Part shown: in pieces, positions 22,538-23,597 of the stretch | How positions within the stretch are numbered: position 1 is the first letter of the stretch | How the letters are laid out: the number at the start of each line of letters is the position of its first letter | Assembly (NCBI RefSeq): GCF_014201655.1 | Contig: NZ_JACHEX010000005.1 | Coordinates: forward strand, 124,001-188,000 | Reading direction: 5' to 3' | DNA: 64,000 nucleotides | DNA from: Thermosipho japonicus | GTDB lineage: Bacteria; Thermotogota; Thermotogae; Thermotogales; Fervidobacteriaceae | Made by a program: the position numbers and the translations under genes | The notes under the pieces: model-generated | What the model was told of the DNA's origin: nothing | The model's input: only the letters and a program-made list of their open reading frames with translations | Databases searched by the model: none

Positions 22538-22552
22538 AATAGATTTAAGTGG

Positions 22553-22558
22553 TATAAT
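22553..22558 (+). promoter_or_regulatory. Extended -10 promoter for the corA leader
   Basis: TGGTATAAT, a TGn-extended -10 with TATAAT at 22553-22558; the -35 region (TTATTT at 22530) is weak. The predicted start near 22565 puts the leader-ORF SD (22575-22583) within about 10 bases of the mRNA 5' end. Confidence 0.6.
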
Positions 22559-22590
22559 TAAGAAAATAAAATCTAGGAGGTGAAAAAGAA

Positions 22591-22647
22591 ATGAGTAGTG
22601 ACAGTTTTAGTAGATACTCAGATGAACCTTTATCTAGACCACCGTAG
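22591..22647 (+). CDS. 18-residue leader peptide upstream of corA
   Basis: A short ORF, MSSDSFSRYSDEPLSRPP, behind an excellent SD (AGGAGGTGA at 22575-22583, 7-base spacing) and ending 23 bases before corA. It is rich in Asp/Glu and Pro near its end (DEP, then PP before the stop). Its last codons (22633-22643) can pair with the corA SD region (22658-22666): TCTA with TAGA, and CC-A-CC with GG-A-GG with one A-A mismatch. This layout resembles Pro-containing leaders of Mg2+-transporter genes such as mgtL, but no homology is claimed. Coding is inferred from the SD. Confidence 0.55.
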   Translation: MSSDSFSRYSDEPLSRPP

Positions 22648-22670
22648 TTTAATATAAGGAGGTAGAAAAA

Positions 22671-23597
22671 ATGGTAAAATTTTACACAATGCAAGAAAAT
22701 AAAATTGTGGAAGTAGAAAAATTCGTTCCAAATTCCCTTATTAAGGTAATTGACCCTTCCGCCGATGAAATTCACATGCTTTCAAGTCTTCTTCAATTTG
22801 ATCCGGATTTTATATATGACTCCCTCGATGATGACGAAAGGGCTCGTATAGAATTAGATGACGATACTGTACTTATAATCTTAAAAATCCCTAAAAAGTT
22901 TAATGGTAATTCAAAAATACCATATAGAACTGTTTCCATGGGGGTAATTATTGGAAAAAATTACACTATCTTTTCCAGCAAAGAACCTGTTGACTTTATT
23001 GACTATATGATTGAAAATAATAAATTTGACATTAATAAAAAGAGTAGAATGATATTCCAAATATTTCTTTTAAATGCGAAAGTTTTTCTTTCATATTTAA
23101 AGGAAGTAAATAAAACTATAAGCATAATAGAAGAAGAGCTTCATAGATCAATGAAAAACAAAGAACTTGAAGAAATGATGTATCTTGAAAAAAGCCTTGT
23201 TTACTTTACAACTTCACTCCGTTCAAACGAAATAATGATGGAAAAACTTCTACGGGGTAACATAATAAAAATATATGAAGAAGATAAAGATGTATTAGAG
23301 GATGCAATAATTGAAAATAGGCAAGCAATAGAAGTTTCAAATATATATAGTGATATTCTTGCTGGTATGATGGATTCATACGCTTCGGTTATTTCAAATA
23401 ACTTAAATATAGTGATGAAAATTCTAACGGTAGTTACCATACTAATGCAAGTTCCAACAATAATAACAAGCTTCTACGGTATGAACGTAAAATTACCCCT
23501 TCAAAACAATCCATTAGCTTATGTACACATAATTTTTTGGTCTATTGGAACGATACTCTTAACACTTGCTTGGTTTAAAAGAAAAAAATGGTTATAA
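22671..23597 (+). CDS. corA: CorA-family divalent cation (Mg2+) channel
   Basis: Pentameric inner-membrane channel for Mg2+ or Co2+. The 308 residues comprise a cytoplasmic alpha/beta N-terminal domain, a long stalk helix rich in Glu/Lys, and two C-terminal membrane helices. The signature GMN is at about 270-272 (FYGMNV), a periplasmic loop follows, and the basic tail KRKKWL ends the protein. SD AAGGAGGTAG is at 22657-22665. Expression is likely influenced by the leader ORF immediately upstream. galM follows after 33 bases without a terminator. Confidence 0.93.
   Translation: MVKFYTMQENKIVEVEKFVPNSLIKVIDPSADEIHMLSSLLQFDPDFIYDSLDDDERARIELDDDTVLIILKIPKKFNGNSKIPYRTVSMGVIIGKNYTIFSSKEPVDFIDYMIENNKFDINKKSRMIFQIFLLNAKVFLSYLKEVNKTISIIEEELHRSMKNKELEEMMYLEKSLVYFTTSLRSNEIMMEKLLRGNIIKIYEEDKDVLEDAIIENRQAIEVSNIYSDILAGMMDSYASVISNNLNIVMKILTVVTILMQVPTIITSFYGMNVKLPLQNNPLAYVHIIFWSIGTILLTLAWFKRKKWL

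Follow-up and report, generated by a model that had tools for sequence, protein, structure and literature searches.

A conserved leader ORF, acidic and ending in Pro-Pro, precedes corA in Thermosipho japonicus and probably controls it in cis

The window, a 64-kb stretch of Thermosipho japonicus DNA, holds a corA gene, the sole CorA-family gene found in a search of the genome, and a short ORF just upstream of it. The features of this locus, with candidate functions marked as such, are listed below (leader peptides are written here and throughout without their terminal stop).

22550..22558, + strand: extended -10 promoter element TGGTATAAT, recognized by sequence; also directly upstream of most related leaders
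near 22565, + strand: predicted transcript start, placed from the extended -10, about 25 nt 5' of the leader ATG
22575..22583, + strand: leader Shine-Dalgarno (SD) sequence AGGAGGTGA; AGGAGG or GGAGGT is kept in most relatives
22591..22647, + strand: leader ORF encoding MSSDSFSRYSDEPLSRPP; conserved, with mostly synonymous variation, and tied to corA only
22621..22629, + strand: Asp-Glu-Pro codons 11-13 (GAT GAA CCT), a candidate ribosome-destabilising stretch; the acidic pair and the Pro are kept in all Thermosipho-type and Marinitoga-type leaders
22639..22647, + strand: terminal Pro-Pro-stop (CCA CCG TAG), a candidate slow-termination site; all 18 compact leaders end in Pro-Pro-stop, as do 24 of the 32 Thermotogota leaders
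22657..22662, + strand: corA SD, AGGAGG, 9 nt past the leader stop
22671..23597, + strand: corA, divalent-cation (Mg2+) transporter, 308 aa (Pfam CorA; divergent from the TIGR00383 equivalog)

The leader runs for 18 codons from the ATG at 22591 to the TAG at 22645-22647, leaving a gap of 23 nt before the corA ATG at 22671. No other ATG-started ORF of 8-40 codons in the window has a 6-nt SD match (here the AGGAGG at 22575-22580, inside TAGGAGGTGA), and the first-pass annotation of an 18-codon ORF with a near-ideal SD at this distance from corA is confirmed. Its description of the peptide as acidic and Pro-containing (DEP, final PP) also holds, and that composition is kept across relatives: the acidic and Pro residues of the T. 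japonicus peptide (D4, D11, E12, P13, P17 and P18) all fall inside the first 30 codons, Ser accounts for 6 of the 18 residues and Pro for 3, and the end reads S-R-P-P-stop. A position near the mRNA 5' end, which had likewise been proposed, is partly borne out. The extended -10 (TATAAT at 22553-22558) is common to most relatives, although here, at 22550..22558, it is paired with a poor -35 and went unreported in a simple promoter scan; because of the poor -35, the promoter was placed from the extended -10. The distance from the predicted transcript start to corA would be about 105 nt. At one related locus (L004) the leader directly abuts the stop of the upstream gene, with no visible promoter, and leader and spacing are still kept. 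The corA product matches Pfam CorA at 173.8 bits and scores below the TIGR00383 equivalog cut-off, and therefore represents a divergent subfamily; the nearest solved chains are 4cy4 and 4ev6.

We examined 20 genomes of the family to which Thermosipho belongs. The leader precedes corA in all nine that hold this CorA, while the other 11 are without both. The motif [DE][DE]PL..PP followed by a stop occurs exactly once in each of the nine, always 5' of corA, and is absent from the remaining 11; the family shows no second copy of the leader. The nine peptides are MSSDSFSRYSDEPLSRPP (two genomes), MESYGSYSDEPLPRPP, MNSESYPSSYSDEPLPRPP, MSSESYTSSYSDEPLPRPP (two genomes), MSSDSFSCSYSDEPLPRPP, MSGESYTSSYSEEPLPRPP and MNSESFSSYSDDPLPRPP, and leader length differs among them in frame (16, 18 or 19 codons). 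The first-pass annotation had proposed a search for a short acidic and Pro-containing ORF in close relatives as a check, and the ORF survived it.

Substitution patterns point the same way. In alignments grouped by type (the genus and family names Thermosipho, Marinitoga and Kosmotogaceae being assigned to relatives by inference, for example from relatedness), pN/pS in the leader frame was 0.33 for the Thermosipho type, 0.07 for the Marinitoga type and 0.30 for the Kosmotogaceae type. The two other frames gave 0.87 to 5.1, and column-shuffling of the alignments gave P values of about 0.009 (Thermosipho type) and about 0.005 (Marinitoga type). Since pN/pS is low in the leader frame only, the peptide is what is kept. 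These sequence comparisons show coding selection on the ORF at 22591-22647 and its tie to corA; that it is a translated regulatory leader we regard as very probable, and control of corA in cis by a conserved acidic and Pro-containing leader ORF appears by far the best reading of the locus. Conservation between families extends to residues other than the acidic ones and Pro ([YF]S.[SD][ED]..PP); acidic/Pro destabilisation alone would not predict the Ser and Tyr/Phe, which suggest specific contacts of the nascent chain.

Other families of Thermotogota also have related leaders in front of this CorA subfamily. These include MDYFSCSEDPLSRPP and close variants (seven genomes), MDSSSSSKDVVSLPP, MESASNTEIPLRPP, a form MELYSSESEPP.. 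and the Kosmotogaceae-type leaders MELYSSESEPPL, MELYSSEGDLPP, MELYSSESDLPP and MDIYSSESAMPN. Loose-motif searches of the phylum returned mostly unrelated coding matches away from corA, and only the corA-adjacent ones were retained. Several corA loci are without a leader: L012, where corA directly follows another gene, L013, L015-L019 and L118. Locus L020 has a remnant, EVARNAEMPTRPP, whose start aligns by eye as ACG rather than ATG, which would mean an unusual start codon or a leader in decay. One contig titled as a Thermococci archaeon (L036) encodes a CorA 55% identical to the Thermotogota one, and is likely mis-binned or the result of transfer.

Acidic leaders (MPDPDSSSRQDIPPFLRWPP..) precede the same CorA subfamily in Spirochaetota as well, where one group (L158-L160, L170, L229-L235, L239 and L241) keeps MPD[PS]DS.S.QDIPPF[LI]R.PP... 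or a form related to it, the distance from stop to corA being 62-96 nt. Several loci of this group have CCC-CCG Pro-Pro codons that look complementary, by eye, to the G-rich region of the corA SD, and another leader type on the Spirochaetota side (M[DE]GGSSYPI[RH].., L182, L184 and L187) has a strong SD and lies 54-83 nt 5' of corA. Some Bacteroidota likewise have acidic leaders (MDDYY..) before this CorA subfamily: several loci (L205, L206, L211-L214; L198) have short ORFs 48-58 nt 5' of corA, namely MDDYYSEMLN, MDDYYYSLVLN and MDDGPSYKRSETCSNRRD, each ended by a stop; a pattern search for MDDYY leaders in one order was too noisy and was not counted.

The leader RNA of T. japonicus shows no significant fold when compared with shuffled sequence (z = -0.70). 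It had been suggested that the last leader codons pair with the corA SD in a switch. Prediction does give such a contact, at about -6 kcal/mol and with one mismatch (ACC.CC with GG.GGU), but it is nothing exceptional: in the eight Thermosipho-type leaders the observed Pro-Pro codons rank 14-16 among the 16 synonymous codings for strength of pairing to the corA SD, whereas a CCT CCT coding would pair at about -13 to -15 kcal/mol. Being close to the weakest available, these codons show that selection has not strengthened the pairing, and with no significant fold the switch is not supported. Its proposed sign, by which completion of the leader opens the SD and early drop-off leaves it closed, would lower CorA at low Mg2+, opposite to mgtL, corL and mgtQ. 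No intrinsic terminator was found 3' of the leader. An Rfam scan of the 64-kb window gave no family matching the leader and no M-box (RF00380), and a covariance-model search for the M-box across 103 Thermotogota genomes gave no match; a known riboswitch or other Rfam element was rejected as an identity for the leader for want of any match.

The Kosmotogaceae type is built differently. Nine Kosmotogaceae-type (Mesotoga-like) loci have a stem (-22 to -40 kcal/mol) that begins a few nt past the leader stop and takes in the corA SD and start codon. It holds despite sequence change, with one pair varying as A-U/G-U/G-C, another as C-G/U-G and a third as U-A/U-G/C-G. Hairpins that sequester the SD between leader stop and corA start occur at loci L107-L116, L021, L105, L106 and L117, and the GTG start is also covered in the Mesotoga-like loci; an Rfam scan of three of them (L105, L109 and L117) gave no match. 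A competing pairing between the leader SD and an anti-SD is possible in Kosmotogaceae-type leaders, yet weaker than the corA hairpin, and was set aside. These structures suggest that corA translation is a regulated output in this lineage, by an output step unlike that of T. japonicus.

In the compact leaders the spacing from leader stop to corA start is near-constant (20-30 nt), and in 18 of 18 the distance from the last Pro codon to the corA start is 26-36 nt (median 30), the spacer itself varying in sequence. The footprint of a ribosome extends about 12 nt beyond the codon being read (PMC4833913), and one at Pro-Pro-stop would thus reach about to the corA SD. With no significant fold and only weak SD pairing, steric effects are the simplest route, and the mechanism we favour, though we hold it tentatively and at slightly less than an even chance, is that the leader controls corA translation in cis by ribosomes that shut out initiation. 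Ribosomes would load close to the mRNA 5' end, at the strong SD of the leader. Those reaching its end would pause at Pro-Pro-stop, about a ribosome's length from the corA start codon (26-36 nt), and would crowd out a ribosome initiating at corA. At low Mg2+ they would drop off at Asp-Glu-Pro, before the leader end, leaving the corA site free, and more CorA would be made. The Kosmotogaceae type has the leader too, but with the hairpin over the corA SD and start, so that the output step would differ by lineage. We infer the destabilising role of Asp-Glu-Pro from work on mgtL and mgtQ (PMC11282234, PMC8092293), and the Mg2+ response and its sign likewise by analogy. Ribosomes are reported to drop off at the EPDP of mgtL at low Mg2+, the acidic residues lying inside the first 30 (PMC11282234); drop-off at acidic/Pro codons at low Mg2+ is supported for mgtQ (PMC8092293); and in enterobacteria mgtA and corA are repressed when their leaders, mgtL and corL, are translated efficiently (PMC11552253). 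Occlusion therefore gives the physiologically expected sign, that of mgtL and corL, and would need neither Rho nor an RNA switch.

Three observations sit uneasily with occlusion. Its acidic/Pro destabilisation leaves the conserved Ser and Tyr/Phe unaccounted for, which keeps alive an arrest peptide, a Ser/Tyr-acidic-Pro chain that would stall the ribosome near Pro-Pro on a signal (low Mg2+, or a shortage of EF-P or Pro-tRNA), the stalled ribosome opening rather than covering the corA SD. The R-x-P-P of Spirochaetota leaders (RWPP, RMPP), like RAPP-type arrest motifs (PMC12992588), speaks for such a peptide, as does the Kosmotogaceae-type hairpin lying so close behind the leader stop; occlusion at corA is impossible in those hairpin-type relatives because their gap is 71-90 nt. 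A ribosome placed in silico at the leader stop, however, frees little of the corA SD in most of them, and in T. japonicus there is no significant hairpin to open, the corA SD is near enough that a stalled ribosome would crowd it, and the leader ends in SRPP rather than in R-x-P-P with a small x. We judge arrest unlikely, while still a serious contender. The 20-30 nt gap would equally permit coupling by reinitiation, with the opposite sign, in which ribosomes that finish the leader begin again at corA, so that more of it is translated, and no metal is sensed. Such a boost has been proposed for short leaders lying close to a gene (PMC4833913), but the gap favoured in that survey is 10-16 nt, corA already has a strong SD of its own, and the conserved peptide residues, the Pro-Pro-stop and the leaders 71-90 nt away would go unexplained; we consider reinitiation improbable.

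Peptide conservation would also be expected of a functional micropeptide that acts in trans, with CorA as one possible target. The 12-19 residues are hydrophilic with no membrane segment, their N-terminal part is variable, and within the family the ORF occurs nowhere but immediately 5' of corA, so this is very hard to credit. Equally remote, in our estimate, is attenuation by Ser or Pro tRNA in place of Mg2+ sensing: the leader is rich in Ser and has three Pro, and mgtP of Salmonella responds to Pro-tRNA (PMC8092293), but the Ser codons are mixed (AGT, AGC, TCA, TCT, TCG), Ser is unconnected with metal uptake and neither a terminator nor an alternative fold was found.

On a longer view, one ancient leader may predate the divergence of Thermotogota, Spirochaetota and perhaps Bacteroidota and have served as a general, riboswitch-independent Mg2+ sensor, in which the nascent chain would carry a specific motif (acidic, Ser/Tyr, Pro-Pro) and the outputs, occlusion or an SD hairpin, would be interchangeable; we consider this possible, if rather doubtful, and the leaders of the three phyla may be independent inventions. 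Ribosome control of Mg2+ uptake through a leader ORF is already known from enterobacteria, and a conserved corA leader in deep-branching thermophiles that yielded no M-box, as well as in other phyla, suggests that the ribosome is a widespread Mg2+ sensor. The shortness of the T. japonicus system, from transcript start to corA, allows clean testing. No earlier description of this leader was found in the open-licence literature searched, where corA leaders were found only in Gammaproteobacteria; this fits the first-pass annotation's view that such control would be new in Thermotogales.

Among known systems, mgtL of mgtA (Salmonella, E. coli) is likewise a short acidic/Pro leader ORF before a Mg2+ transporter gene, its translation tied to low-Mg2+ drop-off (PMC11282234, PMC11552253). 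It acts on transcription, however, through exposure of a Rho site in a long structured leader, and has EPDP at codons 2-5, whereas the Thermosipho leader is about 105 nt with no significant fold, has DEP at codons 11-13 and ends in PP-stop with corA 23 nt on. The corL ORF also lies 5' of corA (Salmonella, E. coli), and its translation is reported to be inversely related to corA expression (PMC11552253; for the gammaproteobacterial corA motif see PMC6429828). It differs in having few acidic/Pro residues as we read it (a single Pro in the conserved part) and a structured, Rho-controlled leader. We do not class the Thermosipho leader as a homologue of corL or mgtL, as there is no RNA-family match and the mutually exclusive structures of those leaders were not found in that of T. 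japonicus. The RAPP-type arrest peptides (ApdA, ApdP) and TnaC share the principle that a ribosome stopped at a Pro close to the end of a short ORF controls the gene that follows, but the Thermosipho leader ends in SRPP-stop and not R-A/G-P-P, its target is a metal transporter, and arrest here is putative. The mgtQ ORF before mgtB (Salmonella) is a very short ORF with Asp/Glu codons that acts on translation of the next transporter gene (PMC8092293); it works through alternative stem-loops with an anti-RBS, of which there is no significant counterpart over the corA SD in the Thermosipho leader, although Kosmotogaceae-type relatives have their corA-SD hairpin. By working likeness, the leader would appear to belong with mgtL, corL and mgtQ among the Mg2+-responsive leader ORFs.
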